A DNA stretch of 64,000 nt from Candidatus Poribacteria bacterium (lineage in GTDB: Bacteria > Poribacteria > WGA-4E > WGA-3G). The notes under the pieces are model-generated. The model was not told the DNA's origin and did no database searches. It saw only the letters and a program-made list of their open reading frames with translations. Numbering within the stretch: position 1 is the stretch's first letter; the number at the start of each line of letters is the position of its first letter. Shown here in pieces: positions 8,350-29,624 of the stretch. The position numbers were made by a program, and so were the translations under genes. The stretch spans positions 1 to 64,000 of the forward strand of contig JAPOQK010000088.1 in NCBI GenBank assembly GCA_026710795.1, read 5' to 3'.

Positions 8350-11300
8350 TTAATCTTGTGATTTCAATTCACCCCACCGTGTTGTGAGTTTGTTCTCGGG
8401 TGAGATCAAGCCTTTCAACTTAGTGGTCATGAGCGTTTGGCGTTCACCGTTGAAGGATATGTCTTCAATTCGGTAGTAATAAACAGCACCAGGTTTTGCT
8501 GAAGTATCTACCCATTTATAGTTTGAACGTTCACCAGTAGTGCCTTTACCTTGAATTAACTTTTCATTGACCTGTTTGAACTCACCGTTCCGGGTATCGC
8601 TACGGAGAATATTAAATCCAGCGTTGTCAAGTTCGGATTCGGTTGTCCAATGGACAATGACTTTCTCGTCTTCCAGTGTTGGACGGAAGAAGGATAAGCT
8701 AACCGGTAACGGAGAATTGAGGGTTTGACCTGGTGTGCTAATATCGTCTCTATGTCCATAGAAGACATAGCGGATTCTATAGGTTCTGCTGTCTATGCTT
8801 GAGAGAATCCAACTTTCGGGTGTTGTCCCATCAGACACTACACGAGTGAATCCATTATCTGTGATATCGGTAACGGTGTTTGTGCGTGCGACTGATATAC
8901 GATCATCTTCTTCAGTATTTGCATGAGGCCATTCCCAACTTGGTGGATCAAACCGTTTTCTATTACCACGACGGTCACTTGCATCAGATGCAAGGTTACC
9001 GATTTCGTCAACTAACTGCCACTTACTTAGGTCGTTTTCGTGACCATTGGCGTGTAAGGTAATATTGAATCCGTAGGCATTGAGAAAATCATCGCCAGAA
9101 TCAACCATACCGAAAGTTTCTCGGTGTGTTGGCCACAGGACGAAGATATCAGAATTAGGTATGAAAACTTCACTCTGAATTGCTCTGCGTGATGTAATCA
9201 ACACTGAAGAATTTGGTCTAATTTTCAAATTCTTCAGCAGGATACTTGCTTCACCTTTACCTTGCCAGTAAGACGTATCACCATCAGTTGTATCGTGGTT
9301 AGTGATAGTAAGACGCCAGTTATGCAAGTCTGCACCAAGGGTCTTAGATGGATTACGAAGTTCAATCCACTGTGGCAGGCTACCGAATGCGTTATCAGCA
9401 TACATAATTTCACTGATATAAACAGCAGCAGTGATATCACTACCAGATTCCGGCAGTGCGTTGTTAGGATAACCTGGTGTACCACCGTTTGCATTTGTAG
9501 CAGCAGCAAGTCGTCTATATCCGATACCGGTCCATCCTACATTTCGGAATGCGGCTTCACCTTCACCATCTTTATTTTCATGGGCACCAACACCACTACG
9601 ATCATTGTGTGTTGTCAAACGTTGGCGAAGAAGAACAACATCTTTATCAAACCTATTATGAGCGAAACTTGGGGCATCAAATTTGTACAGTGGCCATAAA
9701 TCAGTTTTTGAAACTGAATTAGGATATGGATCTTTAATCAAATTCGAGTGGTATCCAGCAATATCCACGATTTTGTCGAGATCGTCAGTCCCGGTTTCAG
9801 CAACACCTTTGCTATCATCTACACCAGATCTCTGACCTTCACCGTTGTCCGGTTCTCGCACCATCAGTACAAAATTGCCGTCGTCAGGTAGTGCAAAACT
9901 TTGAGCCATATAACGAACAGGACTTTTTCGCGTACCTGGTTCTTGTTCTAATTCGCTTTTACTCACTTTGTACCCGACAGCAAGCGGGTGATCAAAGTTG
10001 TCCGCTGGATCGGTAGCGACTATGAGGAACACTTCATTTTTTTCTAATTGAGCATTATCATCTGCCGGAAACTGAATCAGTACGGCATCATTGTCTACTG
10101 CTGTCACAATTGAAATCATGTAATTCCGTAAGTTTATTTTATCTTCGGAGGCATTGCGGAGTTCAATCCACTCGTACTTTTCATTCAATCCAGAACGGTT
10201 TGCCACCTCATTAATAACGATAGTATTACTTGCAGGTTTTATTGTACGTTGCTGTATAATATCGCCTTGTGTCGAGGGTTTAAAGGAGTTCACTCTTCCG
10301 GGTGTGCCAACGTAATCATATTCAATGTTCCCGGATGTGCGTGCCTTTAAATAGGTGTTTTGAGATGCTTCCCAATTACCTGAGGCTCTACCATCTCTGT
10401 TACTATACAGCGCACCGTCTGCATTTGCATAGGCATCCTTTTCGTTTGGTAGTATCCTTGCCATAGAGATAAAGTTACGCGCCTGCACACTGTCACCACT
10501 GGAACCTTTTACAGTCCACGCTGCGTTTCCGGGTCGGTTGTTGAAAAAGTTTGTCACCGCATCAACGTTAGGATCTACGAGATCTCCTCTTAATCCGTTA
10601 TTAGCATCAGTTATATCGGTACCCATTAAGACTTTCATGGTAACTGTTACTGGATCAGCATTGAGATTATGCAGCTCAATCCATTGTGATGCTTTCTCAG
10701 CGGCTTCAATTCCGAGATAACTTTCATCAAGTGCCCACATAATCTCACTGATCCCGACAGTTCCGACAGCAGTACCTGCACTTTCTACAATAAGTGCCCC
10801 ACCACCGTGGGGAGCTGTTAGATCAAAGAGGTTCGCCAAATCAGGCATACCTGTCCACACAACTGTGTCTACATCTGATCGAAAATGCATCCCTCGTGCG
10901 CCGGGTTGGGATGCATGATCATTCCGAACTACAACAACGAAACTATTTCCGGGAATTTCGAATGTTCCATCTGGATGATCTACAGGAGACGGACCTGGGT
11001 CTGGGACTGTAGATAAATCTTCAACCACTTCAAACCTTGCCTCAGCGGGTGTTGATTCCAAGTTCCCAAGTGCTTCAATAGGCGTACCAAGATCAAGGTC
11101 ATACCCTCCAGGAGTTGATACAGCATCAGCTTCTATGGTAACAAATACAATAAGCGGAAGTTCCACAAACTGAGCAGCATTCACAGTGATTTCTACTTCA
11201 AATGCGCGTTTAGAATCAGTCACACGTGCCGGAGTGCCAACTGACAAACTGCTACCAATATCACTATTAGGATTAGTTTGACCTAAGACGATAAGCGAAA

Positions 11301-11721
11301 TCTCGGAATCAGCAAGTACACCACCTGCTCCATCCGTTACATCCATCAAATCCTTATCAAACTCAATACGGATTCTGAATATACCGGTTCTATCTTGATC
11401 AATGGGTGGCTCAACAGTGGGATCAGTTTCTCTTAATTCAGCAAAATCTGTTCCATCAGTTTTTACTAATTTAACAGATTTTCCCTTTATAGTGTCATCT
11501 GTAAAAGTAGTAGAAGTGGTATCTTTAGCATCAACCAATGTAATTGTTGCTGTCGGATGATCGGTTTCTAAGTGGCCATCCGTATTTGGTAGGATGTCGC
11601 TTGTGTTTGGATCGTCATCGTGCGGGTGTGCGAGTACAGTGGTAGGTGCGAAAACAAGTCCGATTGCAAGCATCAATATTAAACTTGCAATAGGAAATGC
11701 CAATCTATTTGACAGTTTCAT
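8350..11721 (-). CDS. Large secreted lamin-tail-domain protein
   Basis: A 1123-residue exported protein with a signal peptide (about 1-31, ending VLAHP). Three lamin-tail-like domains are suggested by repeated ISEIMW/INEV/ISEIMY strands followed by WIELHN or WIELRN elements, near residues 327, 505 and 767. Residues about 1000-1100 resemble a fibronectin-type strand pattern (VIVHWTTESELDNAGFNILR ... YYYRIEDISFNG), often found just before a sorting signal. It ends KLTTRWGELKSQD, the same tail motif as the two secreted proteins near 2.4-4.2 kb. The role is probably surface structure or adhesion. A broken duplicate of its 5' end lies just upstream. Confidence 0.85.
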   Translation of the reverse strand: MKLSNRLAFPIASLILMLAIGLVFAPTTVLAHPHDDDPNTSDILPNTDGHLETDHPTATITLVDAKDTTSTTFTDDTIKGKSVKLVKTDGTDFAELRETDPTVEPPIDQDRTGIFRIRIEFDKDLMDVTDGAGGVLADSEISLIVLGQTNPNSDIGSSLSVGTPARVTDSKRAFEVEITVNAAQFVELPLIVFVTIEADAVSTPGGYDLDLGTPIEALGNLESTPAEARFEVVEDLSTVPDPGPSPVDHPDGTFEIPGNSFVVVVRNDHASQPGARGMHFRSDVDTVVWTGMPDLANLFDLTAPHGGGALIVESAGTAVGTVGISEIMWALDESYLGIEAAEKASQWIELHNLNADPVTVTMKVLMGTDITDANNGLRGDLVDPNVDAVTNFFNNRPGNAAWTVKGSSGDSVQARNFISMARILPNEKDAYANADGALYSNRDGRASGNWEASQNTYLKARTSGNIEYDYVGTPGRVNSFKPSTQGDIIQQRTIKPASNTIVINEVANRSGLNEKYEWIELRNASEDKINLRNYMISIVTAVDNDAVLIQFPADDNAQLEKNEVFLIVATDPADNFDHPLAVGYKVSKSELEQEPGTRKSPVRYMAQSFALPDDGNFVLMVREPDNGEGQRSGVDDSKGVAETGTDDLDKIVDIAGYHSNLIKDPYPNSVSKTDLWPLYKFDAPSFAHNRFDKDVVLLRQRLTTHNDRSGVGAHENKDGEGEAAFRNVGWTGIGYRRLAAATNANGGTPGYPNNALPESGSDITAAVYISEIMYADNAFGSLPQWIELRNPSKTLGADLHNWRLTITNHDTTDGDTSYWQGKGEASILLKNLKIRPNSSVLITSRRAIQSEVFIPNSDIFVLWPTHRETFGMVDSGDDFLNAYGFNITLHANGHENDLSKWQLVDEIGNLASDASDRRGNRKRFDPPSWEWPHANTEEDDRISVARTNTVTDITDNGFTRVVSDGTTPESWILSSIDSRTYRIRYVFYGHRDDISTPGQTLNSPLPVSLSFFRPTLEDEKVIVHWTTESELDNAGFNILRSDTRNGEFKQVNEKLIQGKGTTGERSNYKWVDTSAKPGAVYYYRIEDISFNGERQTLMTTKLKGLISPENKLTTRWGELKSQD

Positions 11722-13126: not shown

Positions 13127-13515
13127 TTAAAATGCCCGAATTACTTTTACAACTAAACGTTGTTTGAATTCTGAAGCGTTTGGGTCGCCGAGGATGATAA
13201 AGAAGTCTGTGCCAGCATAGCCAGAACGCCGTAACGCGAAGTAAGTGTTGATGCCATCTATATGCCAAATTAGGCGGCTGCCAAGACTTAGAGCGGGAGT
13301 GAAGTCATACGTGAGGGTTAGGATCTGTTGGTAACGCCTGTCAAAATGCCATTGGATATTAGAGGAAAGTCCTACAGTGAAACCGTATAAACGTAGGTTT
13401 AGGTTTCCATTTATACGATGTATCCGCTCATCGGTTTGTTCACCCCAGTTATAACCAACACTGATATTGTTGAACCTATCAGAACTATGGTGTATATATT
13501 TTGGGATTTTATCAA
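13127..13515 (-). pseudogene. Internally deleted CBM9/DUF5916 barrel gene
   Basis: The minus strand begins with a TTG start at 13515 in the same leader (CAGAGGAAAACAATTG) as the intact gene at 15699-17678, and keeps about 13 codons (MIKSQNIYTIVLI versus MSKTQYLYMIALI). It then jumps out of frame into the last 120 codons of the family, ending in the same KVIRAF and stop at 13127. About 1.6 kb of the middle is missing. The junction shows a short GATA overlap. It follows the sigma factor gene at 13587-15269 exactly as the intact copy follows the sigma gene at 17780-19474. Confidence 0.85.
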
Positions 13516-13541
13516 TTGTTTTCCTCTGTTATAGGGTAAAT

Positions 13542-13563
13542 GGTGCGGTTAGGAAACCGCACC
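13542..13563. repeat. GGTGCGGTT palindrome
   Basis: GGTGCGGTT (13542-13550) is inverted as AACCGCACC (13555-13563) around a four-base loop. The same palindrome is at 17705-17726 in the equivalent sigma-to-barrel spacer, and a weaker copy lies at 31502-31522. Confidence 0.65.
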
Positions 13564-13586
13564 TACCGATTTGATTTTGGGATTGA

Positions 13587-15269
13587 CTACTTTCCAAGGA
13601 CTTTCAGGAACTCTGGGTCATCCCAAACATCTGAGAATTCAGGTGTTTCAAGGAATGTTGGGTAGAAAGAATCCGGATAATTAAGGGTAGTGACCACGAA
13701 TTTGTCCTGTGCGATTTTTAGATAATTTAGAGTCTTCTCGCGATCTTTCTCAGATGCCCAGATACTCACAGCGAGCATGAAATAACTATGTTCATTCCAA
13801 TTATCCAAATCGATGGCGATTTGTAGCAAGCGTTTCGCCTCGTTATATTTCTTTGACCATACCAGACAACACCCGATATTGTGAGCAGTACAAAAAAGTT
13901 CGTATGTGTTTAGGGGAAAGTTATCATTCAGTTTTTTCAACTCTAAATCCATATACGTGTTTACTTCAGTATAAACCTGATTGAAACGATCCCAGTCTTC
14001 TTGTTTTCCGTACAATAGAAGTCTGTTTGATCTCACAGCCAACCAGAATCTGAAGTAGTGTTCCCAATCTTGTTTTTGGTTAGCCCGTTCCAACTTTTCA
14101 ATTTCAAGCAGGGCATCATCAAACCGGTCATTGTGTCGTAGCACTTCGGTGCCTTTTTTCAGGAAATCACACCGTGAGTAGTCGCTCACTTCAGGGTGTT
14201 CTAAGCGTTCAGATGCCTCATTATAAAGTTGAATCCAGTTATCAATACGGTTTTCCGCTTTCCAACATCTGGCAATGTTTAGATCGGAAATAATCCTCAA
14301 CACATACTTTTCTGTATGCTGACATGCCCAACGGTAGAGGAGTGTCTGTTCCTCAATAGCTTCTCGATTTCTTCTAAGAATAGCGCAACCATTCACTAAC
14401 GACTTATGCGACCAGTATCGTTCTGTATCATCTTTTAGGTCATTCATATACTTACGGAGTAGGGATACTCGTTTTTCAATTCCAAGTTTACCCATATACG
14501 GATATATTCCATCAACCGCAATATGCACCAACTCAGATGTGATTTCACCCTTGAGCACAGCGTCAATTTCGCTGTCTGCTTCTTTGAGTATATCTTCTCT
14601 GGATATCGGATCAGATTTTAAACGTTCCATATATGAATTAAACTTACTGCGAATTTCTTCTAATTGACTCATGATGTTCTCCTTCAGATTATTTGATGAT
14701 AGTAAATGACCAAAGAGTCCTTGGTCTGTTTGTAGACGTTTTCGAGCGCGTTGGAGTCGACTCGTAATTGTATTAACCGATACTCCCATGAATTCGCCAA
14801 TCTCTTTTGTTGACATTTCATCAAGATAGTAGAGTGTTACGACCCTGCGTTCATTTTCTGTCAGTTTTTCCAGTAGTTTTTCCACAAGTTCATGACAATA
14901 CTCAGTTCTTTCTGTTTTCCGCTGCTCTGTCAGATGTTGTGTATAAGAGGATTCATCAATTTCTTGCGGATGTGTGCCTTCCAGCGACTGCATCACAAGC
15001 TTTTGCCTGCGTACCCAATCAATACAAAGTCGTTTTGCGATGACATGGATCCACCCGGCAAATTGGTTAGGATTCTTGAGTGTGGGAAGTTTATTGTATG
15101 CCTTAAGGAAGGTGTCTTGCATAATCTCTTCTGCATAGTGATAATCTCGAATCTTCCGCCATGCAAGAGCATGAATGCTTTCTTGATATTTTTCGACCAA
15201 GATGCTAAATGCAGCGTCGTCACCAGATAAGATTTTGCGAATTAGTACAACATCGTCAGCTCTTTCCAC
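13587..15269 (-). CDS. ECF sigma factor with TPR-like extension (A)
   Basis: A 560-residue fusion. Residues about 15-90 form sigma region 2 (YHYAEEIMQDTFLKAYNKL) and about 140-190 region 4 with helix-turn-helix (MSTKEIGEFMGVSVNTITSRLQRARKRL). The remaining 360 residues are helical with TPR-like pairs and end PEFSDVWDDPEFLKVLGK, a tail common to TPR-containing proteins of this type. It should direct RNA polymerase to a specific regulon. The start is GTG with AGGAG nine bases upstream. At residue 200 an ATG (14672) is preceded by AAGGAG six bases away, so a TPR-only product is possible. It is closest to sigma C. The broken barrel gene follows. Confidence 0.88.
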   Translation of the reverse strand: MERADDVVLIRKILSGDDAAFSILVEKYQESIHALAWRKIRDYHYAEEIMQDTFLKAYNKLPTLKNPNQFAGWIHVIAKRLCIDWVRRQKLVMQSLEGTHPQEIDESSYTQHLTEQRKTERTEYCHELVEKLLEKLTENERRVVTLYYLDEMSTKEIGEFMGVSVNTITSRLQRARKRLQTDQGLFGHLLSSNNLKENIMSQLEEIRSKFNSYMERLKSDPISREDILKEADSEIDAVLKGEITSELVHIAVDGIYPYMGKLGIEKRVSLLRKYMNDLKDDTERYWSHKSLVNGCAILRRNREAIEEQTLLYRWACQHTEKYVLRIISDLNIARCWKAENRIDNWIQLYNEASERLEHPEVSDYSRCDFLKKGTEVLRHNDRFDDALLEIEKLERANQKQDWEHYFRFWLAVRSNRLLLYGKQEDWDRFNQVYTEVNTYMDLELKKLNDNFPLNTYELFCTAHNIGCCLVWSKKYNEAKRLLQIAIDLDNWNEHSYFMLAVSIWASEKDREKTLNYLKIAQDKFVVTTLNYPDSFYPTFLETPEFSDVWDDPEFLKVLGK

Positions 15270-15308
15270 GAAACTTTCTCCTATTGAATACGGTTTATAC
15301 TTCTATTA

Positions 15309-15447
15309 ACGTGAGTTCCATAATTGTAGCGCAACTGTTAGTTTGCGTATAATGGATCACAATCTAACAGATTGTGCTACAAAAACCTTACTAAAACTAA
15401 AGAATATAAGCGATGAGTTACTTATGACTTATTTATGGAACTCACGT
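15309..15447. mobile_element. Short inverted-repeat element with 7-bp duplication
   Basis: A 139-base element with perfect 15-base terminal inverted repeats, ACGTGAGTTCCATAA at 15309-15323 and its complement at 15433-15447. It is flanked by the direct repeat TCTATTA (15302-15308 and 15448-15454). The equivalent upstream region of sigma gene C (21511-21530) has the same flanking bases without the insert, i.e. the empty site. No transposase is encoded, so it is non-autonomous. Confidence 0.85.
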
Positions 15448-15698
15448 TCTATTATTTAATGACGCAAGTTTAATCAGAAAACGTGCGTTATGCAAAAAAA
15501 AAAGAAAAACGTGAACGGAAAACGCGGTGAGTGTTGGCTATTCCTTGAAGAATGGATAAGGCAAGAAGAGATCTTACGCTTGCATAGGAAATGAGATTAG
15601 ATATTGTCGTTGTATTCCATAGGAACTACAAATGTGGTGAGTTCAAACCGGCACTCCATAGTCCGTGCATCCGTTGGTGAAGTGGAAATACTAAGGAC

Positions 15699-17678
15699 TT
15701 AAAATGCCCGAATCACTTTTGCTACTATACGTTGTTTGAATTCTGAAGCATTAGGGTCACCAAGAATGATAAAAAAGTCCATGCCCGCATAACCCGAGCG
15801 GCGTAATGCCAAATAGTAATTAACGAAATCTGCTTGCCAGATTATACGACTGCCAAGACTTAGGGCAGGAGTAAAGTCATACGTGAAGGTTAGAATCTGT
15901 TGATATAGTCTTTCAAAATGCCATTGAATACGGGAGGAAAGTCCTACAGTGAATCCGTAAGCGCGAAGATTCAGATTTCCGCTGATGCGGTGTATTCGCT
16001 CATCTGCTCTTTCACCCCAATTGTAGCTAAAACCGATATTGTTGAACTGATCCGATGAACGTGCATTTAATCTGATGCTAAAGAGACTATCAGTGAATTC
16101 TTGGAAACGACCACCATACCAGCTAATAGAAATCCTGTAATCACTATGTGTCAAGAAATTTGAAAAGACAGAAAAGTCTTGCTGAAATACCTCACCTTCA
16201 TAAGTGTTAGCAGCTATGAAATTTGCCCCAGCGAAGATACTGCGTATTATTCCCTTTCTCCATTCGTTTGAAATGATTCCTTCTACACCACCTCCACGTA
16301 GACCTGTGAACGGTCGGTAGCCGAGATTATTTACGTAATCTGGATCCACAAAATACCCAAATAATGTTGATTGAAAAAGGGGACCTCTGTATTGTAAATT
16401 AACATTCCCTGTTCTTCCATCTGACTCCTCTTCCCAACTCTGGGTAAAACTTGATTCCGCTGAAAACTTATCGTATCTGACCTTTCCTGAGAAGTGCCCA
16501 ACACTGTTTGTATCTGAATCAGGACGATGGTGCGATAAAAAACCCGCGATGATGTGAGAAGTTGCAGTAATGGATTGTTTCGCACGTAAAAGAAAGTTCT
16601 GGTTGTTGCGATGATAGGTGCCTAAAGTGCCGACTGATGTGTTTTTTGCTAATTTTCCATAGAGTTTTATCCCTCCATCCATATCCATTATCCTGCGTGA
16701 ATAGAAAAGGTTTCCAAGATTGTAGACATTTCCACCTTCAGAGAAGAACGGACGACGGTCACCCACATATCGTTCACTGTAAGAGAAGTCTATGCCTTCT
16801 ACATCTTGTTCTATGTTATCAAAATCAGGGTTTGCTGTTCCGATGAGTCGTAGTTGTGGTGTAACCTCAAAACGAAGGTCACCACCTGCACGTGCAGTAT
16901 ACTCTCTTTCATCCATTTCTGTTTCACTGATACCACCAATAAGATATGGTAAGAATTTTAGGTCGAGTTTTCGCTTCGGAGGCAGCACGTCAATCCAGTG
17001 TCCATCGTTTTCTCGAAATTCGTTAACACCTAAATTACACCACCATGAACGTTCTCCTGTCCTTTGTTGTAATCTGTCGAGGTTGATACCCATCCGAATA
17101 GGTTCTGTCGTTTCTGGATAGTCCAGTATCTGCCAGGGGATTTCCATTTCAACAATCCATCCATCATCTACTATTTTGGCGACAGCTTTCCAGAGACCGA
17201 TCCATTCACTTTTTTCTGCGCGTCCAGTAGCAAGATGTGCATATTTTGTTCCCAGTGGATTTGCCATAAAGAAGTTTCTGTCAGAAAATTGGTGTGTGTG
17301 GAACGGATCGAGACTGAAAGAAACCCAATCCTCTCCACTGAATCGGGTCTGATCTTTTCCTTGGCGCGCAACAATTTTGTCTGGCGTATCATCGTATAGA
17401 TGAATTGCGACGTAGATAGCTTCGTCAGTGTAGACAACGTAACCAATAGATTGATTCTTGGCTGGTTTTTCGGTACGTTGGTCGGTAAAGCCTACGGCTT
17501 TCGGAGCGTCTTGCCAACAGGCATCGTCAAGGATACCGTCTATGGCGGGTGGTTGTTCTGTTTTGACTGCGGGGAGTTCTTTTTTTACAGTCTGTGTGTT
17601 TTCTGCTGCGATTGTGTGTATGTTTGATATTAGCGTTATTATCAACGCTATCATGTATAAATATTGTGTTTTACTCAA
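15699..17678 (-). CDS. CBM9-like / DUF5916 outer-membrane barrel (B)
   Basis: A 659-residue exported protein. After a signal peptide (about 1-25) comes a CBM9-like domain, residues about 33-235 (VKTEQPPAIDGILDDACWQD ... IYVAIHLYDD ... WIVEMEIPWQIL). Alternating beta-strands follow to the end, as in DUF5916 proteins. The C-terminal residue is Phe, the usual signal for beta-barrel insertion. The start is TTG with AGGA about seven bases upstream; an internal ATG at residue 9 is an alternative. It lies 101 bases after sigma B on the same strand and 429 bases before sigma A. Carbohydrate binding is possible but not shown. Confidence 0.85.
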   Translation of the reverse strand: MSKTQYLYMIALIITLISNIHTIAAENTQTVKKELPAVKTEQPPAIDGILDDACWQDAPKAVGFTDQRTEKPAKNQSIGYVVYTDEAIYVAIHLYDDTPDKIVARQGKDQTRFSGEDWVSFSLDPFHTHQFSDRNFFMANPLGTKYAHLATGRAEKSEWIGLWKAVAKIVDDGWIVEMEIPWQILDYPETTEPIRMGINLDRLQQRTGERSWWCNLGVNEFRENDGHWIDVLPPKRKLDLKFLPYLIGGISETEMDEREYTARAGGDLRFEVTPQLRLIGTANPDFDNIEQDVEGIDFSYSERYVGDRRPFFSEGGNVYNLGNLFYSRRIMDMDGGIKLYGKLAKNTSVGTLGTYHRNNQNFLLRAKQSITATSHIIAGFLSHHRPDSDTNSVGHFSGKVRYDKFSAESSFTQSWEEESDGRTGNVNLQYRGPLFQSTLFGYFVDPDYVNNLGYRPFTGLRGGGVEGIISNEWRKGIIRSIFAGANFIAANTYEGEVFQQDFSVFSNFLTHSDYRISISWYGGRFQEFTDSLFSIRLNARSSDQFNNIGFSYNWGERADERIHRISGNLNLRAYGFTVGLSSRIQWHFERLYQQILTFTYDFTPALSLGSRIIWQADFVNYYLALRRSGYAGMDFFIILGDPNASEFKQRIVAKVIRAF

Positions 17679-17704
17679 TTGTTTTCCTCTGTTATAAGGT
17701 AAAT

Positions 17705-17726
17705 GGTGCGGTTTGGAAACCGCACC
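17705..17726. repeat. GGTGCGGTT palindrome
   Basis: GGTGCGGTT (17705-17713) and AACCGCACC (17718-17726) form a nine-base stem in the leader of the barrel gene, 27 bases before its start. The copy at 13542-13563 occupies the same position before the broken barrel gene. Confidence 0.65.
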
Positions 17727-17779
17727 TACCGATTTGTGATTGTTTATGGATTTACAATATACTATAAACTGTTGATAGA

Positions 17780-19474
17780 CTACTTACCGAGGACTTTCAG
17801 AAACTCGGGATCATCCCAAACATCCGAAAATTCAGGTGTTTCAAGGAAAGCAGGATAATATCTATTTTCATTCCAATAATTTAATATATAATCCGAAGCA
17901 AGTTTTAAATTATGCAATGTCTTCTCGCGATCCTTCTCAGTTGCCCAGATACTTACAGCAAGCATGAAGTATGCCCAATCGTTTTTGTTTTGCAATTCAA
18001 GGGAGATTTGTAGGGAACGTTTTGCGTCCTCATACTTTTTTGACCACACAAGACAGCACCCTACATCGTGAGCAGCCCATATCAGGTTGCCGACATTTAC
18101 CGGATAGCCTGCTTTCTGTTTTTCCACTTCACCATCAATAAATGTCCTGACATCCTTCACAACAGGATCAAAACGAACCCAATCTTCCTGTTTTCCGTAT
18201 ATGCGAAGACGGTTCGTTCTCACAGCCAACCAGAATCGAAAATAGTGTTTCCAACTCTGATCTTTGTTAGCATGTTCCAACTTCTCTAATCCGGAAAGTG
18301 CATCATCAAACCGCTCATAGGCACGTAACACCTCTGACCCGATTTGCAAAAAATCGCAGCGTGAGAAGTCACTCACTTCAGGATTATCTAAACGTTGGGA
18401 TGCCTCATCATGTAGTTGGACCCACTCATCAATACGACCTTCCTTCTTCCAACAATCAATAATGGTCAAATTACAAAGGGATTCCAATACATATTTATCC
18501 GACATGTGCTTGCATGCCCAACGGTAAAGACGTATCTGTTCTTCAACTGCTTCTCGGTTTCTCTCCAAAGCAGGGAAACTATGGACTGTTCGGTGTTTCG
18601 CCCAAAAACGTTCAGTATCATCTGCGGCAACATCTTGGTACCTACGGAGTAGTGCGATCCGTTTTTCCATGCCGATTTTGCCAAAATGCGGATATATATC
18701 ATCAACTACAAGATGCGCCAACTCGGGTGTGATCTCATCCTTAATTGCAGCTTCTATCTCTGCATCAACCTCCATAAGAACCTCTTCGCTTTTATGTATA
18801 TCTTCATCTGATAGAGGGAAAGATTCCACATATTTCATATAAGTATCAAACTTACCACGAATGTCTTGCATTTTTCCTGACATTATTATATCTCCTTTAT
18901 GACCACCCAAATTATTGAAAATTGTGTGTTCCTCCTGCTGCAACCGCTTTCGAGCACGATGGAGTCGACTCTTGACTGTGTTCGGTGATACACCCATAGA
19001 CTTACTGATGTCTTCACATGTCATGTCATTCAGATAATGAAGCGATACAGTGGTGCGTTCACTCACTGGTAACTTTTGAAGCAGGTTTTTGACAACTTCG
19101 CGTTGCCGTTCACTCACGAATTCTCTCTGTTGTTTGGTGTTGTATTCTGTATAAGCCAGACCTTCTAATTCCTCTGCTGGCATCGCATCTAACGATTGCA
19201 TCGGAATCCGCTTTTTTTCGTACCATGCGAAACATTGACGTGCCGCTATCACATAAAGCCATCCCACAAATTTATTCGGGTCCTTCAGAGTCCACAGTTT
19301 TTCGTAAACTCTCAAGAATATATCTTGTGTGATTTCTTCAGCAGTGTGGAAGTCGTCAATTTTTCGCCATACATAAGCGTGGACCGACTTTTGATATTTT
19401 CGCACAAGCGTGTTGAACGCAGGCTGGTCGCCTGCCAAGATGCGTTGAATCAATTGTGCGTCATCGTTTTTCAT
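17780..19474 (-). CDS. ECF sigma factor with TPR-like extension (B)
   Basis: A 564-residue paralog. Sigma region 2 is at about residues 15-90 (FHTAEEITQDIFLRVYEKL) and region 4 at about 140-190 (MTCEDISKSMGVSPNTVKSRLHRARKRL); a helical TPR-like part ends PEFSDVWDDPEFLKVLGK. It is the most divergent of the three copies, especially in the sigma half. The start is ATG. At residue 198 an ATG (18883) has AAGGAG eight bases upstream. The barrel gene B follows 101 bases later, so the two may be co-transcribed, with the sigma controlling its own surface protein; this is inference. Confidence 0.88.
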   Translation of the reverse strand: MKNDDAQLIQRILAGDQPAFNTLVRKYQKSVHAYVWRKIDDFHTAEEITQDIFLRVYEKLWTLKDPNKFVGWLYVIAARQCFAWYEKKRIPMQSLDAMPAEELEGLAYTEYNTKQQREFVSERQREVVKNLLQKLPVSERTTVSLHYLNDMTCEDISKSMGVSPNTVKSRLHRARKRLQQEEHTIFNNLGGHKGDIIMSGKMQDIRGKFDTYMKYVESFPLSDEDIHKSEEVLMEVDAEIEAAIKDEITPELAHLVVDDIYPHFGKIGMEKRIALLRRYQDVAADDTERFWAKHRTVHSFPALERNREAVEEQIRLYRWACKHMSDKYVLESLCNLTIIDCWKKEGRIDEWVQLHDEASQRLDNPEVSDFSRCDFLQIGSEVLRAYERFDDALSGLEKLEHANKDQSWKHYFRFWLAVRTNRLRIYGKQEDWVRFDPVVKDVRTFIDGEVEKQKAGYPVNVGNLIWAAHDVGCCLVWSKKYEDAKRSLQISLELQNKNDWAYFMLAVSIWATEKDREKTLHNLKLASDYILNYWNENRYYPAFLETPEFSDVWDDPEFLKVLGK

Positions 19475-19781
19475 GCGTCAACTCCAAAACATGTTTGTCA
19501 TTCATAATATAAAGATAGGTAATAGAGTCTGCATGGTTGCACAAAATGCAAGAATGTGGATAAATATAGAATTATGTTGATGAATTGCGGGGGACACGGA
19601 TTTATTTGAATCGCGAATTACGCAGTTTGCGCGAATTTCTGAGTTTGATAAAACACATCTTTATACGCATGTAGACACTGCTGGTATTGGAACGGGATCT
19701 GATAATCCAAATCCACGCAATCTGTGTAATCCGTGATTCAGACAAAAAGGGGTTCGAACAATCAGAGATTCAGAAAATACA
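19475..19781. other. Gene-free spacer between sigma genes B and C
   Basis: No gene is seen. The middle contains two imperfect palindromic tracts, one around GAATCGCGAATTACGCAG (19610-19640) and one ending AATCTGTGTAATCCGTGATT (19719-19738). Similar wording (TCTGATAATCC ... TTCAGAC) also appears near 13060-13080. These look like degenerate dispersed repeats. Confidence 0.35.
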
Positions 19782-21479
19782 TTACTTGCCAAAAACTTTC
19801 AGAAACTCTGGATCATCCTTAACATCAGAAAATTCGGGTGTTTCCAGGAAAGAGGAGTAGTAGCTATCCATATAATTGTAGGAACTCGCCACATAGCTGT
19901 CCTCAGCAACCTTCAAATAGTGTAAGGTTTTTTCTCGATCCTTATCAGATGCCCAGAGGCTGACAGCAAGCATGAAGTGACTGTACTCGTTGAAATTTCC
20001 CATATCAACAGCAAATTGTAGCAAACGTTTCGCCTCGTTATACTTCTCCGACCATACCATACAACAACCAACATTGTGTGCTGCCCAAATAAGTTCGTAG
20101 GTATTTACAGGAAAATTCGCATCCAGCTTTTTCAGTTCTCCTTCAATGTATGTGTTTAGTTCTGTCCAAATTTTATCAAAACGATTCCAATCTTCCTGTA
20201 TGCTATATAACAAAAGCCTATTCTCTCTTACTGCCAACCAGAATCTAAAATAATTCTTCCGACCGGGTTTGCCATTGGCATGTTCCAACTTTTCTAATTC
20301 AAGAAGTGCAGCATCTGACTTGTCGTTCTTACGTAAAATCTCTGCTCCAAATTGCAGAAAATTGCAACGAGTGTACTGGCTTACTTCAGGGTTCTCTAAG
20401 CGTTCAGATGCCTTATGATAAAGTTTTATCCAATCATCAATGCGATCTTCTGCTTTCCAACAACCCGCAGTATTCAGATCGGAAATAACCCTCAGAACAT
20501 GTTTTTCTGAATGCTTGCATGCCCAACGGTAAAGACGCGTCTGTTCCTCAATAGCTTCTGTATTTCTACGAAGAAAAGCAAAACTCTTGACTATCCTCTG
20601 ATGCCCCCAGTAACGCTCCGTATCATCTGCTACGTCATTCATATACTTTCGGAGTAGAGATAACCGTTTTTCTATACCGATGCTACCCATATACGGGTAT
20701 ATATCATCAACAACGAGATGCATCAACTCAGATGTAATTTCACCCTTAAGCGAATCATCAATTTCATCCAATGTCTCTTTAAGAAGATCATCTTTTGACG
20801 CTGGGTTAGCTCTCACATTTTCCATGTATGAATTGAACTTGTTGCGAAGTTGCTCAAATTGACTCATAATATTCTCCTCCAGATTATCAGGTAATTCTAT
20901 ATGTCCAAAGTATTCTTGAACCAAAGAACCTTGATCTGTTTGTAGACGTTTTCGCGCACGTTGGAGTCGACTTGTAATTGTATTTACAGAGACCCCCATG
21001 AATTCACCAATCTCTTTCGCTGACATTTCCTTGAGATAATAGAGTGTAACAACCTCTCGCTCATTCTCTGGTAATTTATCCAAGAGTTCTTGCACAAGTT
21101 CATGATAACATTCCGTTTTTTCTATCACCCGCTGTTCCAACATGTGTTGGGAATAAGATGATTCCTCGATTTCTTCCAGACATGTGTCCTCCAAGGATTG
21201 TATCATAGATTTTTGCTTTCGTATCCAATCAATGCAAAGATGATTTGCGATAGTATGAAGCCACCCTGCAAATTGATTGTGATTCTTGAGTGTCGGAAGT
21301 TTTTTGTATACTCTCAGGAATGTGTCTTGCACAATCTCTTCAGCATAGTGAAAATCGTGTATGTTTTTCCATGCAAGGGTATGAACGCTTTTTCGGTATT
21401 TTTCAACCAAGATACTAAAAGCAGCGTCATCGCCTGATAAAATTTTGCGAATCAGTTGAACATCGTCATCTCTTTTCAC
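19782..21479 (-). CDS. ECF sigma factor with TPR-like extension (C)
   Basis: A 565-residue paralog, closest to copy A (both begin ...LIRKILSGDDAAFSILVEKY and share MGVSVNTITSRLQRARKRL). Region 2 lies at about residues 15-90, region 4 at about 140-190, then the TPR-like part ending PEFSDVKDDPEFLKVFGK. The start is GTG at 21479. At residue 205 an ATG (20867) carries GGAGGAG six bases upstream, the strongest of the three internal ribosome sites. It lies downstream of barrel gene C (255-base spacer), the same barrel-then-sigma order as barrel B and sigma A. Confidence 0.88.
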   Translation of the reverse strand: MKRDDDVQLIRKILSGDDAAFSILVEKYRKSVHTLAWKNIHDFHYAEEIVQDTFLRVYKKLPTLKNHNQFAGWLHTIANHLCIDWIRKQKSMIQSLEDTCLEEIEESSYSQHMLEQRVIEKTECYHELVQELLDKLPENEREVVTLYYLKEMSAKEIGEFMGVSVNTITSRLQRARKRLQTDQGSLVQEYFGHIELPDNLEENIMSQFEQLRNKFNSYMENVRANPASKDDLLKETLDEIDDSLKGEITSELMHLVVDDIYPYMGSIGIEKRLSLLRKYMNDVADDTERYWGHQRIVKSFAFLRRNTEAIEEQTRLYRWACKHSEKHVLRVISDLNTAGCWKAEDRIDDWIKLYHKASERLENPEVSQYTRCNFLQFGAEILRKNDKSDAALLELEKLEHANGKPGRKNYFRFWLAVRENRLLLYSIQEDWNRFDKIWTELNTYIEGELKKLDANFPVNTYELIWAAHNVGCCMVWSEKYNEAKRLLQFAVDMGNFNEYSHFMLAVSLWASDKDREKTLHYLKVAEDSYVASSYNYMDSYYSSFLETPEFSDVKDDPEFLKVFGK

Positions 21480-21567
21480 AAGACATGCCCCTATTGAAAT
21501 CGGTTAATCCTTCTATTAATTAATGACGAAAGTAAAAGAAGAAAACGTGCATCATGGCAATAAATTA

Positions 21568-21624
21568 AAGTGAGTTCCATAATGCGCAAACTAAGAGTTT
21601 ACGCTACAAATACGGAACTTACAT
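21568..21624. mobile_element. Short inverted-repeat element with 7-bp duplication
   Basis: A 57-base member of the same family as 15309-15447. Left end AAGTGAGTTCCATAA and right end (complement) ATGTAAGTTCCGTAT match at 11 of 15 positions. It is flanked by perfect TAAATTA direct repeats (21561-21567 and 21625-21631). Confidence 0.75.
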
Positions 21625-21734
21625 TAAATTATAGCGCGACCTATCTCGACAAGCGAGAAAGATCACGCCTTCCATGATGCAGGAGAGTTCACAAACACTC
21701 TTCTGGATATTGTGTTGTATGAATATTGAGATAT

Positions 21735-23744
21735 CTAAAATGCCCTAATCACTTTTGCCACTATACGTTGTTTGAATTCCAACGCATTCGGGTCCCCGAG
21801 AATGATAAAAAAGTCCATGCCAGCATACCCAGAACGACGTAATGCAAAATAGACATTTACCTTCTCTGTTTGATATATTAAGCGACTACCGAGACTTAAA
21901 GCAGGAGTGAAATCATACGTGAGGGTTAGGATCTGTTGGTAACGTCTTTCAAAATGCCATTGGACTATGGATGACAGACCGGCAGTGAAGCCGTAAGCGC
22001 GGAGATTCAGGTTTCCACCAATACGATGAATTGTTTCACCTGCACGTTTGCCTCCAGCATAACTGATGCCGACATTGTTAAAACGATCCGTGGCTCTGAT
22101 GCCGAGACCAACAGTAAAAACACTATCAGTGAATTCCTCATATTGTCCACCGACCCATTGAGCAGTCAATAAATAGTCTTTATGTGTAAGAATTCCCGTA
22201 GCCAAGTAAAGGTTACGGCGGAAGACTTCACCTTCATAGGTATTAGAAGCATCTACAACAGCAGAAAGGTATGCTTTACGTATATTACCACTACGCCATT
22301 CATGACTGAGGTAACTTGTCAACTCAACTCCACGATAACCTATGAACGGATGATAGCCGAGTCTATTGACGAAATCCGGATCAAGAAAATATGCGGAGAT
22401 TGCAGTTCGGACGAATTGTCCTTCGTAACCCATTCTGGCAAATCCGTTTCTTCCAGTAGAATTACCTTCCCATCCTTGTGCGATATGTGCAAATGTAGCA
22501 ATCTTACCGTGACGCACATTACTCCACATGTATCCGACATTGTTTGCATCTGTGTCACTGTGATAGTTGGATAAGAATGCTCCATTTATGTTGGATGTCG
22601 CCGTTAGACCTTGTGCAACACGTAAAATGAAGTTCTGGTTATTTTTATGGTAAGTGCCTAAGGTGCTTACAGTTGTGTTTTTTGCTACTTTCCCAAATAG
22701 TTTAAGTCCTCCATCCATCTCAGCAATCCGTCGTGAATGAAAAAAGGAGTCAAGATAGAAGGTATTACCACCTTCAGCAAAGAAAGGACGTCGGTCAGGT
22801 ACATAGCGTTCACCGTAGGAGAAATCTATCCCTTCCACGGCTTGTTCAATATTATCAAAATCTGGGTTTGCAGTGCCGATGAGACGTATTTGTGGGGTAA
22901 GCTCGTAGCGGATATCACCGCCTGCGCGGGTGGTGTATTCTCTTTGCACTTCAGAGGTATTTTCTTCAGAAGTTTCTGCTTCTGTGATACCACCAATTAG
23001 ATACGGGAGCAACTTCAGTTCACGTTTGCGACGTGGTGGTAATACATCCACCCAATGTCCATCGTTTTCTCGGAATTCGTTCACTCCAAGGTTACACCAC
23101 CACGATTTCTCTCCTGTCCGTTGTTGTCCACGATCAATGTTGATACCCATGCGTATAGGTTTTTTTGTATCAGGATAATCCAACATCTGCCATGGAATTT
23201 CCATCTCAACAATCCATCCATCATCCGCAATCAGTGCGGCGGTTTTCCATAGTCCGATCCATTCACTCTTCTCAGCGCGTCCTGTGGCGAGATGTGCGAA
23301 TTTCGTTCCGAGTGGATTTACAATGAAAAAACTTCTGTCAGAAAATTGATGCGTATGGAATGTGTCGAGACTAAAAGATACCCAATCTTCTCCTTGAAAC
23401 CGGGTCTGATCTTTTGTTTGGCGTGCTACGATTTTGTCAGGTATATCGTCGTAGAGATGAAGTCCGACATAGATGGCTTTGTCTGTGTAGACGAGTCTCC
23501 CAACAGATTGATTTTTTGCAGGCTTTTCGGTGCGTTCATCGGTAAAACCGGTTGCTTGTGGTGCGTCTTGCCAACATGCATCGTTGAGGACACCGTCAAT
23601 GATGGGTGGTTGTTCTGTTTTTATTGCGATGAGTTCCTTCTGGACGGTTTGTGTGTTTTGAGATTGTGCAGTTTGTATATATGTTGATAGTAGAATGGTT
23701 AGTGTTATAATCAGTGTTCTTGTGTAATATTTGTGTGGTTTCAT
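21735..23744 (-). CDS. CBM9-like / DUF5916 outer-membrane barrel (C)
   Basis: A 669-residue paralog of the gene at 15699-17678, with signal peptide (about 1-28), CBM9-like domain (IKTEQPPIIDGVLNDACWQD ... IYVGLHLYDD ... WIVEMEIPWQML) and a C-terminal beta-rich barrel ending KVIRAF. The central barrel (about residues 400-570) is clearly more divergent between B and C than the two ends, which fits changing surface loops. It also carries a short insertion near residue 255 (EAETSEENTSEVQ). The ATG start is at 23744. Sigma C follows on the same strand. Confidence 0.85.
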   Translation of the reverse strand: MKPHKYYTRTLIITLTILLSTYIQTAQSQNTQTVQKELIAIKTEQPPIIDGVLNDACWQDAPQATGFTDERTEKPAKNQSVGRLVYTDKAIYVGLHLYDDIPDKIVARQTKDQTRFQGEDWVSFSLDTFHTHQFSDRSFFIVNPLGTKFAHLATGRAEKSEWIGLWKTAALIADDGWIVEMEIPWQMLDYPDTKKPIRMGINIDRGQQRTGEKSWWCNLGVNEFRENDGHWVDVLPPRRKRELKLLPYLIGGITEAETSEENTSEVQREYTTRAGGDIRYELTPQIRLIGTANPDFDNIEQAVEGIDFSYGERYVPDRRPFFAEGGNTFYLDSFFHSRRIAEMDGGLKLFGKVAKNTTVSTLGTYHKNNQNFILRVAQGLTATSNINGAFLSNYHSDTDANNVGYMWSNVRHGKIATFAHIAQGWEGNSTGRNGFARMGYEGQFVRTAISAYFLDPDFVNRLGYHPFIGYRGVELTSYLSHEWRSGNIRKAYLSAVVDASNTYEGEVFRRNLYLATGILTHKDYLLTAQWVGGQYEEFTDSVFTVGLGIRATDRFNNVGISYAGGKRAGETIHRIGGNLNLRAYGFTAGLSSIVQWHFERRYQQILTLTYDFTPALSLGSRLIYQTEKVNVYFALRRSGYAGMDFFIILGDPNALEFKQRIVAKVIRAF

Positions 23745-23809
23745 ACTATATTTGTATCCTCTTTGCTTTGGTGTTTATTGGTTTTAACTCTATCAAATTA
23801 TAGTGGATA

Positions 23810-24000
23810 TAATACCAATTCTAATAATTATTGTCCCATTACCGGATTCAACTGTTGTTGATTGGAGATCTTTCTTCTGTAGGAGCGACCCGGGGAATGC
23901 CAATAGGCATTCATACCGTTGATTTACCGGTCGCGACCGGGAGGTCCCTCCTACATGTATTCCTCAGCAAATGACACTTTATTTGTTAGAAATGGTATTA
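23810..24000. mobile_element. Inverted-repeat element with TA ends, copy 2
   Basis: A 191-base segment with ends TAATACCAATTCTAA (23810-23824) and TTAGAAATGGTATTA (23986-24000), inverted at 14 of 15 positions. The outermost TA on each side could be a TA target duplication, as left by IS630/Tc1-type elements. An inner TGTAGGAGCG.../...CTCCTACA palindrome (23878-23955) is shared with 247-325. No ORF. Confidence 0.65.
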
Positions 24001-24022
24001 GAATTACTTTGACAGTTTTTGG

Positions 24023-24088
24023 TGTAGGAATGAACTCTGATTCCCGACTACCAAGACGTTCGGTCGCGATTCGGAGATCGCTCCTACA
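24023..24088. repeat. TGTAGGA/TCCTACA palindromic repeat
   Basis: Ends TGTAGGA (24023-24029) and TCCTACA (24082-24088) with an inner GACTACC...GGTCGCGATTCGG portion. It lies 23 bases beyond the inverted-repeat element at 23810-24000 and belongs to the same palindrome class. Confidence 0.5.
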
Positions 24089-24204
24089 GAAAATGTGTCA
24101 ACTGTTTATTATCTTTCACTATATGAAGATAAAGCAATGATAGGTTAATTTTCATCAGGATATTTTATGCTGCAAGTATAATGAAGAGTGTTTTCGCCTG
24201 ATTA

Positions 24205-24843
24205 TTAAAGTTCAATGTCTTTACGTCTAATGCTGGAATGGAATTCATAGATGGTTTCAACACATCGGATCAACATTTCATCACTGAGTCCGTAGGCATC
24301 GGAAATTGTCAATTTGCTTTCAACCGTGTCATGAATCCGTTGGTTAGGCACGACAAGAACAGAATCAGCATTTTCCCGCAGTTTCTGCAGTCCCAGTTCG
24401 GCAATTTCAACACACCGTTCACCTTCAAAATTAAAAGGTAAAGTGACAATACCAACTGTAAAAGCCCCTTGTTCCCGAGAAAGAGATGCAATCACAGGTA
24501 CCGCACCTGTACCTGTACCACCACCCATACCAGCTATAACAAGAACGATATCTGCGTCATGCATAATTTGATGAAGTTTGTCCGAGTCCTCTTCAGCAGC
24601 TAATCTACCTCTTACTGGATATCCCGCGCAACCAAATCCCTGTGTGATATTAGAACCGATCAGCACTGGTGTTGCATAGTTGACTTTATTGTTTACTCGT
24701 TGATCAGTATTAACTACATAATATTCAATGTTTGTCAGACCCGTTTCTACCATACGTTTGACAACGTTCCCTCCCGCACAACCAACACCGATAACTTTGA
24801 ATTTGTCGTGGCTATTTTTGGTTTCTTCTATATTTGAAATCAT
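24205..24843 (-). CDS. FtsZ-like GTPase domain, no C-terminal half
   Basis: A 212-residue protein matching only the N-terminal GTPase domain of FtsZ. It has the T1 loop GVGCAGGNVVKRM, the NTDQR segment, and the tubulin signature GMGGGTGTGAVP near residue 108. It ends shortly after the region equivalent to helix H7, before the T7 catalytic loop (NxDFxD) and the FtsZ C-terminal domain. FtsZ is normally 350-400 residues. Without T7 it could bind GTP but not form a normal polymer that hydrolyses it. No continuation is visible downstream. It may be a regulator, a decoy subunit or a stable truncated relic. The true cell-division ftsZ is not in this window. Confidence 0.8.
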   Translation of the reverse strand: MISNIEETKNSHDKFKVIGVGCAGGNVVKRMVETGLTNIEYYVVNTDQRVNNKVNYATPVLIGSNITQGFGCAGYPVRGRLAAEEDSDKLHQIMHDADIVLVIAGMGGGTGTGAVPVIASLSREQGAFTVGIVTLPFNFEGERCVEIAELGLQKLRENADSVLVVPNQRIHDTVESKLTISDAYGLSDEMLIRCVETIYEFHSSIRRKDIEL

Positions 24844-25002: not shown

Positions 25003-25803
25003 TCATTTTGGTTCTAAATATTTTAGTGGACTTTCAACGATGTATTCCCCTGAGTCTTCAAGGAATTGCTGCACCAGATAGACATGACCTCCACCTATAA
25101 TCAGCAGAATTCGATCATCGGTAGATTCAGTAATCCGTGTCAGATTCACAAATATTTTGAGATTCCTATCGTACCAATAATGTGACAGCCAATTGGCTCC
25201 TGGATATTGGTCTCCCAATCCAATCCGTGCGCTCCGTAGGTATACTTGATGTTTGGCGCGCCTATCTTCAGGTTCATTACCACGGATATACATGTCAATG
25301 AGGGATTCGTATTTCGTGGGGACAATCCAAACTCTGCCATCTTCCTGCTCGTGGAATTCCACATCGGCATCAGCGTAAAAGTCTTCTACGCTTGAGAGTA
25401 AGTGTTCTTGATTGTGTTCCCTTGCGAATTTGTCCTCATCCATCAAATCTGGGTCAAGATCTTCCGGAAGAAATGGGTTTTGTTCTGGCCAATAATCAAC
25501 ACAGTATACCTTTGGATGTCCCATCTGTTTTGCCAACCTATAACCAATTTGATCACCCTCGTACCGCTTGAGTTCATAAGTTCCGTTGAGATAGTCTTGA
25601 TAGTTTTTGTTTTCAGCTTCGCAACTTCTTGGATCCAACTCAAGCGCAATCTTAGTAGGACAAAATGGTTTGAGTAGCGACACCAATTGTTCTATTTCCC
25701 GCTGGCGTTTGGGTGCAAGCACATCGTCCATTTTGAAGTTGTATGCATCCATTCCTGGATTCGCCAGGTGTCCGCTGCCAAGAATCATGATTGTCGGTTT
25801 CAT
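25003..25803 (-). CDS. DUF5694 (TraB/GumN-like) protein, copy 3
   Basis: A 266-residue cytosolic protein without signal peptide. It starts MKPTIMILGSGHLANPGMD and has PKRQREIEQLVSLLKPF, PTKIALE, YQDYLNGTYEL, GYRLAKQMGHPKVYCVDYWP and a C-terminal LLIIGGGHVYLVQQFLEDSG. These match DUF5694, related to the TraB/PrgY/GumN hydrolase-like group; the two Gly-x-Gly-His-like sites are retained (GSGH and GGGH). The start overlaps the previous stop by one base (TGATG), so translation is coupled. It is last in a four-gene operon led by an ECF sigma factor. Biochemical role unknown. Confidence 0.75.
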   Translation of the reverse strand: MKPTIMILGSGHLANPGMDAYNFKMDDVLAPKRQREIEQLVSLLKPFCPTKIALELDPRSCEAENKNYQDYLNGTYELKRYEGDQIGYRLAKQMGHPKVYCVDYWPEQNPFLPEDLDPDLMDEDKFAREHNQEHLLSSVEDFYADADVEFHEQEDGRVWIVPTKYESLIDMYIRGNEPEDRRAKHQVYLRSARIGLGDQYPGANWLSHYWYDRNLKIFVNLTRITESTDDRILLIIGGGHVYLVQQFLEDSGEYIVESPLKYLEPK

Positions 25804-26624
25804 CAGTTAGCATCCTCCGGTTTCAGATATTTTAGTGGACTTTCGACGATATAATCTCCTGATTCCTCTAAAAACTGCTTAATCAGGTAGACAAGTCCTG
25901 CACCGATGAGTAACAGAATCCGATCCTCTGCAGATTCCGTTATCCGCGTCAAGTTCACATAGACTTTTAGATTACGAGCATACCAAAGATGTCCAACCCA
26001 ATTCGCTCCAGGATATTGGTCCCCTATACCGATTTTTGCAAGTCGTAAGTATACCCGATGGTCGGCGTACCTGCCTTCAGGTTCATTACATCTTATGAAC
26101 ATATTGAGGAGAGGTTCGTATTTTTTAGGTTCAATCCAGACTCTACCATCTTCCTCTTCATGGGTTTCTACATCAGGATCAGTAAAATCAGCTAATCGTG
26201 GCAGGAGATGTTCTTGATTGTTTTCCATTGCGAATTTGTCAACATCTATCAAGCGCATGTCAAGTTCATCCAAAGGAATGATAGGGTCATCTCTTCTACT
26301 ATAGTCCACACAGTATATCTTTGGGTGTTCCATCTGCTTAGCTAACCGATAGCCGATCTGATCAACTTCACTTCGTTGGAGTTTGTATGTATCATTTAGA
26401 TAGTCCTGATAGTTTGCATTGATCTCAGAATCATACATTTCGTCTGCTTGAATGGCTATTTTGTTAGGATGAAATGGTTTGAGTAGTGACACTAATTGCT
26501 CAATTTCTCGTTGTCGTTTGGGGGCAAGGACATCATCCATTCTGTAATTGAATGCATCCATCCCAGGATTATCCAAGAGCGTAGTACCGAGAATCATGAT
26601 TGTCGGTTTCTTTTGGTGTTTCAT
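25803..26624 (-). CDS. DUF5694 protein, copy 2, both His sites lost
   Basis: A 273-residue paralog. The start at 26624 (MKHQKKPTIMILG) is chosen over a longer frame because the upstream gene's TGA overlaps this ATG (TGATG) and GGAGG precedes it. The fold signatures are kept (PKRQREIEQLVSLLKPF, GYRLAKQMEHPKIYCVDY). But the first site reads LGTTLLDNPG instead of L-x-x-x-H-x-x-NPG, and the C-terminal site reads LIGAGLVYL instead of G-x-GH. If these histidines matter for activity, this copy is inactive or repurposed. It is the second of three tandem copies. Confidence 0.75.
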   Translation of the reverse strand: MKHQKKPTIMILGTTLLDNPGMDAFNYRMDDVLAPKRQREIEQLVSLLKPFHPNKIAIQADEMYDSEINANYQDYLNDTYKLQRSEVDQIGYRLAKQMEHPKIYCVDYSRRDDPIIPLDELDMRLIDVDKFAMENNQEHLLPRLADFTDPDVETHEEEDGRVWIEPKKYEPLLNMFIRCNEPEGRYADHRVYLRLAKIGIGDQYPGANWVGHLWYARNLKVYVNLTRITESAEDRILLLIGAGLVYLIKQFLEESGDYIVESPLKYLKPEDAN

Positions 26625-29559: not shown

Positions 29560-29624
29560 GGTATTATTCTCCTTCTATAATTTCTTATTGGACAAGATTA
29601 TTATGTGTGCGGAATGCATCTTGT

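Follow-up and report, generated by a model that had tools for sequence, protein, structure and literature searches.

Extracytoplasmic function sigma factor fusions of Candidatus Poribacteria with a probable internal start at the sigma/TPR junction and class-specific candidate promoters

Background

Extensions have been described for at least 26 groups of extracytoplasmic function (ECF) sigma factors (PMC8999054). ECF42 factors carry a C-terminal extension of ~200 residues, rich in tetratricopeptide repeats (TPR) and thought to act by protein interaction, with a YCII-type gene in the neighbourhood, and ECF57 factors carry a WD40 extension (PMC8999054). Reported here is a comparative analysis of an array of ECF sigma-TPR fusion genes and CBM9/DUF5916-type genes for putative outer-membrane beta-barrel proteins (hereafter barrels), located at positions 13127 to 23744 of a 64,000 nucleotide (nt) stretch of Candidatus Poribacteria (GenBank assembly GCA_026710795.1, contig JAPOQK010000088.1, positions 1 to 64,000). 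This whole stretch is termed the window. The source genome comprises 4.7 Mb in 114 contigs, the window being contig 55. Poribacteria are symbionts of sponges.

The array resembles ECF42 in that an ECF sigma factor is joined to a C-terminal extension of the TPR type. The extension here is helical and spans ~360 residues as against ~200, a length that does not fit ECF42, and the internal start and the adjacent CBM9/DUF5916 genes described below have no counterpart for ECF42 in the available text of PMC8999054. No YCII-type gene was found among the window genes scanned with Pfam, which are part of the genes of the window. As in ECF57, some sister fusions in the source genome carry WD40 propellers; unlike ECF57 and the other extended groups, as far as these are portrayed in that text, one family here has many partners, including the FtsZ GTPase and the beta clamp. 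T4 late transcription depends on sigma-like gp55, gp33 and the sliding clamp gp45 (PMC7892883). In both cases a promoter specificity factor is linked to a DNA sliding clamp, whereas sigma and a bacterial-type clamp form one cell-encoded chain here, known from genes alone.

Cas11 is reportedly made by internal in-frame translation, and in the array, too, a second protein would arise from a start within a larger frame; the proteins are unrelated, and here many members of one fusion family share the feature. Among the best-ranked matches of a search of mostly open literature, none described ECF fusions in Poribacteria or an ECF gene with an internal start.

The window is interpreted as part of a poribacterial family of ECF fusions in which every sigma-TPR gene would give rise to two proteins and each sigma class would control its own promoter and its neighbours, a reading to which a probability of about 0.6 is assigned. 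Both the internal start and the wider fusion family go beyond a preliminary description of the array that had been made from its letters.

Internal start at the sigma/TPR junction

The three sigma-TPR genes of the window lie on the minus strand and fall into two classes, sigma-TPR A (13587-15269, 560 aa) and B (19782-21479, 565 aa, GTG start) belonging to class B and sigma-TPR C (17780-19474, 564 aa) to class C. At the junction between the sigma and TPR halves each gene holds Shine-Dalgarno (SD)-like letters and an in-frame ATG, namely AAGGAG in A (14670-14684, ATG at 14672), GGAGGAG in B (20865-20880, ATG at 20867) and AAGGAG in C (18881-18897, ATG at 18883). Among 73 matches to the TPR half, with 8 fragments and 6 unfused genes left out, 59 complete fused sigma-TPR genes from 31 genomes were available for comparison (class B, 40; class C, 19). 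All 59 have an SD-like site and an in-frame start codon at the junction, ATG in 56 and GTG in 3, the SD letters being AAGGAG in 57, GGAGGAG in one and GGAGA in one, at 4-9 nt from the start codon. Using SD thresholds and a linker zone that were chosen after examples had been viewed, at least five matching SD letters precede 57/128 linker ATGs vs 1/527 other in-frame ATGs. Pairing energies with the anti-SD sequence are -9.0 at internal starts, close to the -8.7 of primary starts, vs -1.6 at other in-frame ATGs. Local structure at internal starts, at -5.6, is weaker than the -9.7 found elsewhere. Unfused TPR genes at two loci (L113 and L127; L numbers denote loci and G numbers genomes) start at the homologous position and have a purine-rich site there.

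In class B the SD letters are read as Lys and Glu codons, AAG in 38/38 genes with Lys and GAG in 40/40. No other codon is invariant in the conserved columns, which number 16 for Lys and 27 for Glu, GAG being the rarer Glu codon of the class (862 vs 1470). In class C these letters are retained and read in a different frame, as AAA GGA, in 19/19 genes; the codon test is not distinctive there, in that 3/21 Lys and 8/27 Glu columns are also invariant, so that class C alone proves little. Judged from sequence comparison, the evidence for a used internal start is strong in class B. Since the SD-like site and in-frame start are conserved at the junctions, each sigma-TPR gene probably makes the full fusion plus a free TPR-like half.

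Two other explanations of the junction letters were considered. Site and ATG may be fossils of a gene fusion that followed stop-codon loss, with only the fusion protein made. Free TPR and FtsZ-like genes with a start of their own do exist, and the free FtsZ-like genes of the window and of L134 have a stop where the fused genes read Glu, both in favour of this view. A fossil is nonetheless unlikely, given that the SD codons of class B are the sole invariant Lys/Glu codons amid neighbouring codons that drift, that the junction Met, where changed, became GTG, itself a start codon, in 3/3 cases, and that the letters are kept though their reading frame differs between the classes. Alternatively, AAGGAG could be conserved at the protein level, with folding dependent on a Lys-Glu or Lys-Gly linker and on the Met; conservation of the junction Met (or Val) among linker residues that mostly vary would suit this. 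The residues differ by class (KE and KG), and class B makes no use of synonymous codons, which renders a purely protein-level constraint improbable.

The preferred reading, a full sigma-TPR chain accompanied by a free TPR-like half from the junction ribosome binding site and start, lends itself to a simple regulatory scheme. The tethered TPR half would sense a partner or ligand and gate the sigma factor, and the free half would compete for that partner or inhibit the sigma factor in trans, thereby setting a threshold. If true, a second start that supplies a free regulatory half would be simple and testable, with dozens of natural fusions to compare.

Class-specific promoter motifs

ECF-like promoter motifs were found upstream of the sigma-TPR genes, with a consensus of TGCACGTTT-N13-TCGTCWTTA for class B and TGCAACC-N15-CCTATCTTWA for class C. 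In the window, all on the minus strand, TGCACGTTT-N13-TCGTCATTA precedes sigma-TPR B (21521-21551), TGCAACC-N15-CCTATCTTTA precedes sigma-TPR C (19510-19541), and a class B motif with two mismatches precedes sigma-TPR A (15457-15487). Across 60 fetched loci and the window, the class B motif has 45 sites (reversed control, 1), of which 31 precede sigma-TPR genes of class B and 0 those of class C; of the 21 class C sites (reversed control, 0), 18 precede genes of class C and 0 those of class B. Allowing one mismatch in the 59 genomes compared, the class B motif occurs 51 times, spread over 29 genomes (reversed control, 4), and the class C motif 25 times, 22 of these being exact, over 21 genomes (control, 7). 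Within the source genome, a search at up to two mismatches placed an exact class B site before sigma-TPR B and one with two mismatches before A; the sole class C site lies before sigma C. A general sigma-70 promoter scan gave no excess (32 vs 31.4 in shuffles) and was set aside.

The promoter class matches the sigma class, which argues that each class would switch on its own promoter. Neighbouring genes (barrels, S9 peptidases and ABC permeases) may be driven through the same motif or by read-through. The class C motif stands before an intact barrel in G005 and before a barrel fragment in G012, and the class B motif before a barrel of a 428-aa frame in G020. Other motif sites precede S9-type peptidases (L129, L130, L135 and L209), one STAS and one TPR gene (both L125), a TPR gene (L141) and an ABC-2-type permease (L122); among these targets, Pfam checks covered the L129 S9 gene, the STAS gene and permease relatives, and the others were identified by eye. 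With these class-specific promoters, a candidate regulon is available for the first time in this part of Poribacteria, an uncultured phylum. The TPR gene of L125 (7497-8696) has no sigma half, carries the class B motif upstream and adjoins the STAS gene that also has the motif. The motif also lies upstream of a sigma protein at L166 (628-1872) that ends, at its C terminus, in another sigma region 2. Repeated letters were noticed before the FtsZ fusions as well; the pattern searched for matched one unrelated site only, and no claim is made.

In the preliminary description it was suggested that each sigma factor may switch its neighbouring surface protein, and a motif common to both gene types was to be looked for upstream. 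The motifs do stand before the sigma genes, in a class-specific manner, and before barrels in a few genomes; most barrels are without them. Control of barrels is thereby partly supported, a few genomes providing motif evidence and others positional evidence. Within the window no class B or class C motif was found upstream of barrel 1 (21735-23744). By position, the sole plausible target is barrel 2 (15699-17678), which begins 101 nt downstream of sigma C and would be its likely output. Sigma A, in turn, may have lost its output through the deletion in the third barrel.

Average identity between the classes is 51% for sigma halves and 61% for TPR halves; in comparisons within a class, 94% of pairs show the higher conservation in the sigma half. 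Class C forms one clade in the sigma tree (100/100). In the TPR tree three changes are required for it, as in every bootstrap replicate. Since the sigma-half and TPR-half trees differ, promoter, sigma and linker travel as a unit, the TPR half having been exchanged.

Linkage of sigma-TPR genes and barrels in relatives

The six named relatives matched with sigma-TPR B are all Candidatus Poribacteria. Across the 59 relatives, the TPR half is present in 35, representing 4/19 genera, and barrel homologues of any strength, weaker ones included, in 59/59. For linkage, the barrel set was restricted to 37 strong full-length matches. A full-length barrel lies within 6 kb of 33/59 sigma-TPR genes, with ~0.23 expected by chance, so the neighbourhood is not a chance one; conversely, a sigma-TPR gene lies within 6 kb of 26/37 barrels. 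The two gene types thus stay together in relatives, in keeping with the preliminary description, without forming strict pairs: 10/37 barrels have no sigma-TPR gene within 12 kb, and the TPR half is less widespread than the barrels. In the fetched sigma-TPR loci a barrel-type frame lies within 6 kb on the same strand in 37/60 and on the opposite strand in 0/60, a looser count that includes fragments and a few DUF4252/CBM9/Omp85-type frames, and in 9/60 such a frame follows within 150 nt downstream. Some barrels adjoin other sigma fusions, L160 and L161 holding barrels with a sigma-clamp and a sigma-FtsZ gene. Broken or partial barrels occur in relatives too, for example in L135 and L140.

Tandem duplication of a locus of chance neighbours, with no regulation between sigma and barrel, would account for copies that are related by duplication, for the many barrels devoid of a motif and for the 26/59 sigma-TPR genes whose nearest barrel is beyond 6 kb or on another contig. 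It accounts poorly for linkage that recurs in 22 genomes having both gene types, that is always on the same strand in the fetched loci, and for the barrel of G005, which is away from sigma C and has its own class C motif. Duplication by itself is accordingly rather unlikely.

Other sigma fusions and free partners

In the source genome the sigma protein is matched 60 times, in 46 cases within open frames of at least 282 aa, many of which are in tandem clusters (contigs 68, 70, 104, 105 and 110). Partners of this same sigma family include BNR/sortilin-type propellers, WD40 propellers, a lectin, M16 and S9 peptidases and helix-turn-helix domains in the source genome, and the FtsZ GTPase and a complete beta sliding clamp in relatives. 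In fetched loci, to which these counts refer rather than to whole genomes, a linker ATG with at least five SD letters is found in 23/31 other fusions of the source genome, vs 8/363 ATGs elsewhere. In five genomes of other families the corresponding figures are 9/14 fusions vs 2/120 other ATGs, and at four letters 12/14 vs 13/120.

Sigma-clamp fusions were found at L141 (830-2578), L119, L124, L126, L160 and L158, the last being in the source genome and cut by a contig end. The L141 protein scores 206.6 bits against the TIGR00663 equivalog (cut-off, 137.65), its match covering residues 215-578 and profile positions 1-365 of 367 and beginning at the internal Met. Clamp matches in frames of 577-694 aa number 20, in 19/59 genomes, and six fusions were confirmed through the sigma half. 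An ordinary-length clamp gene is also listed in 17 of the 19 genomes; in G008 and G021 none is among the listed matches, which an assembly gap may explain.

An ECF sigma factor joined to the GTPase half of FtsZ is encoded at L141 (5852-7129) and 12 other loci, near barrels. The sister fusion (238.4 bits) and a free FtsZ-GTPase-like gene of the window (24205-24843, minus strand, 212 aa; 220.4 bits) fall below the 295.2 bits of the FtsZ equivalog TIGR00065, their matches spanning only about the first 200 of 353 profile positions. The free gene has relatives fused to an ECF sigma factor and starts at the place of their internal Met; its upstream letters resemble the end of a lost sigma gene, with a stop replacing the Glu of the fused genes. 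The free FtsZ-like gene of L134 has a similar arrangement. The sigma gene at 27430-27987 was considered as the lost sigma and rejected, its sequence being that of a different, ordinary ECF factor. Simple sigma loss was likewise rejected for the sigma-less TPR genes of L125 and L141. The L125 gene has a hydrophobic leader resembling that of the neighbouring S9 peptidases and, for this reason, may be a recombinant.

A broader reading can be entertained tentatively, though it is doubtful: across Poribacteria an ECF sigma domain would have been placed in frame before many genes, with the ribosome binding site and start of the partner kept, so that each gene would make both a native and a sigma-tagged partner. 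Where or when the sigma factor acts would then depend on the partner's state, be it a filament, a DNA ring, a propeller or a TPR complex, the sigma-clamp chain being a possible cellular, single-chain counterpart of T4 late transcription, and in the window the same design would drive surface-protein genes. If true, transcription would be coupled directly to the machinery of replication or division through the sigma-clamp and sigma-FtsZ chains.

Several observations, beside the indistinct codon test in class C, weigh against internal starts and class-specific control. A strong internal site is absent from 8/31 and 5/14 of the other fusions. The signal is weaker in FtsZ fusions (at least five letters in 1/13, four letters in 12/13) and in clamp fusions (3/6 and 6/6), the background at four letters being ~1 in 9. 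The motif before sigma A has two mismatches, a level at which the control also gives two hits in the source genome, and most barrels have neither motif. Barrel homologues occur without the TPR half in 24/59 genomes. Finally, a 22-nt palindrome between sigma C and barrel 2 (17705-17726, minus strand), with a sister copy at 13542-13563, is terminator-like by scan (such sites number 19 vs 8.1 in shuffles) and speaks against full read-through.

Domain content and predicted structure

Sigma regions 2 and 4 are over the Pfam cut-off in A, B and C, and the sigma-70 ECF profile TIGR02937 is matched at 105.9 (A), 107.6 (B) and 90.6 bits (C), against a cut-off of 42.9. The Pfam scan of the C-terminal halves of A, B and C did not name TPR in any of them. 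In an AlphaFold model of sigma-TPR B (14 rows; predicted local distance difference test, pLDDT, 74.6) the C-terminal half is all-helix, and a low-confidence linker ends just before Met205. Foldseek searches with this model returned ECF sigma factors first and then mainly TPR proteins, with weak scores (E ~1e-3), and the unfused TPR relative of L113 gave weak TPR matches below the curated cut-off.

Barrel 1 is a CBM9_1 and DUF5916-type protein of 669 aa with a C-terminal Phe, and barrel 2 a DUF5916-type protein of 659 aa. DUF5916 (PF19313) is over its cut-off of 22.6 bits in both, at 46.8 and 26.4, the match spanning only about the first 95 of 572 profile positions. CBM9_1, with a cut-off of 23.4 bits, is exceeded in barrel 1 only (23.9 and 21.5). 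The AlphaFold model of the putative outer-membrane barrel (pLDDT 33.9) was unusable.

Array layout and neighbouring genes

The extent given for the array in the preliminary description is correct, and its inventory of three sigma-TPR genes, two intact barrels and one broken barrel on one strand holds. In order of transcription on the minus strand these are barrel 1, sigma-TPR B, sigma-TPR C, barrel 2, sigma-TPR A and the broken barrel; the alternation of gene types that had been described is not strict, B and C being adjacent. The broken barrel (13127-13515, minus strand) consists of a 5' end and the last ~119 codons, joined by an internal deletion, so that the tail is out of frame with the start. 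DNA identity is 75.5% between A and B, 64.6% between A and C, 64.3% between B and C, and 70.2% between barrels 1 and 2. The array copies are therefore old duplicates.

Repeated spacers had also been claimed, and both spacer types do share blocks, although the letters by which the spacers had been named could not be matched with certainty. The spacers from sigma C to barrel 2 and from sigma A to the broken barrel have 58 nt in common (96.6%, E 1e-24), including the 22-nt palindrome. Blocks of 30-63 nt, with 79-87% identity and E values down to 1e-10, are common to the spacers from barrel 1 to sigma B and from barrel 2 to sigma A. The palindrome core has three occurrences in the whole genome. 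A common dispersed repeat was rejected as the origin of the spacer palindromes, the exact patterns tried having one and three genome occurrences.

A phase-variable choice of surface protein, as the preliminary description envisaged, would be suggested by similar barrels in tandem with broken copies. Repeat searches found no slippage tract and no strong invertible repeat, yielding only four tandem arrays (6-15 nt units, ~2.3-2.5 copies) and a longest inverted pair of 42 nt at 76%, and the barrels decay by deletion. Such switching is very improbable here.

Upstream of barrel 1, the region 23745-24204 contains palindromic repeats, and similar pieces are present at several other genome loci. Three tandem DUF5694 genes (25003-27433) are flanked by an ordinary ECF gene and the free FtsZ-like gene. 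The region 27430-31387 contains two ordinary ECF genes, a zf-HC2 anti-sigma-like gene, a DUF4252 gene and a DUF4252-CBM9 gene, the last without the Omp85 part that its counterpart in L109 has. On the other side of the array, 8350-11721 encodes a 1123-aa protein with lamin tail domains.

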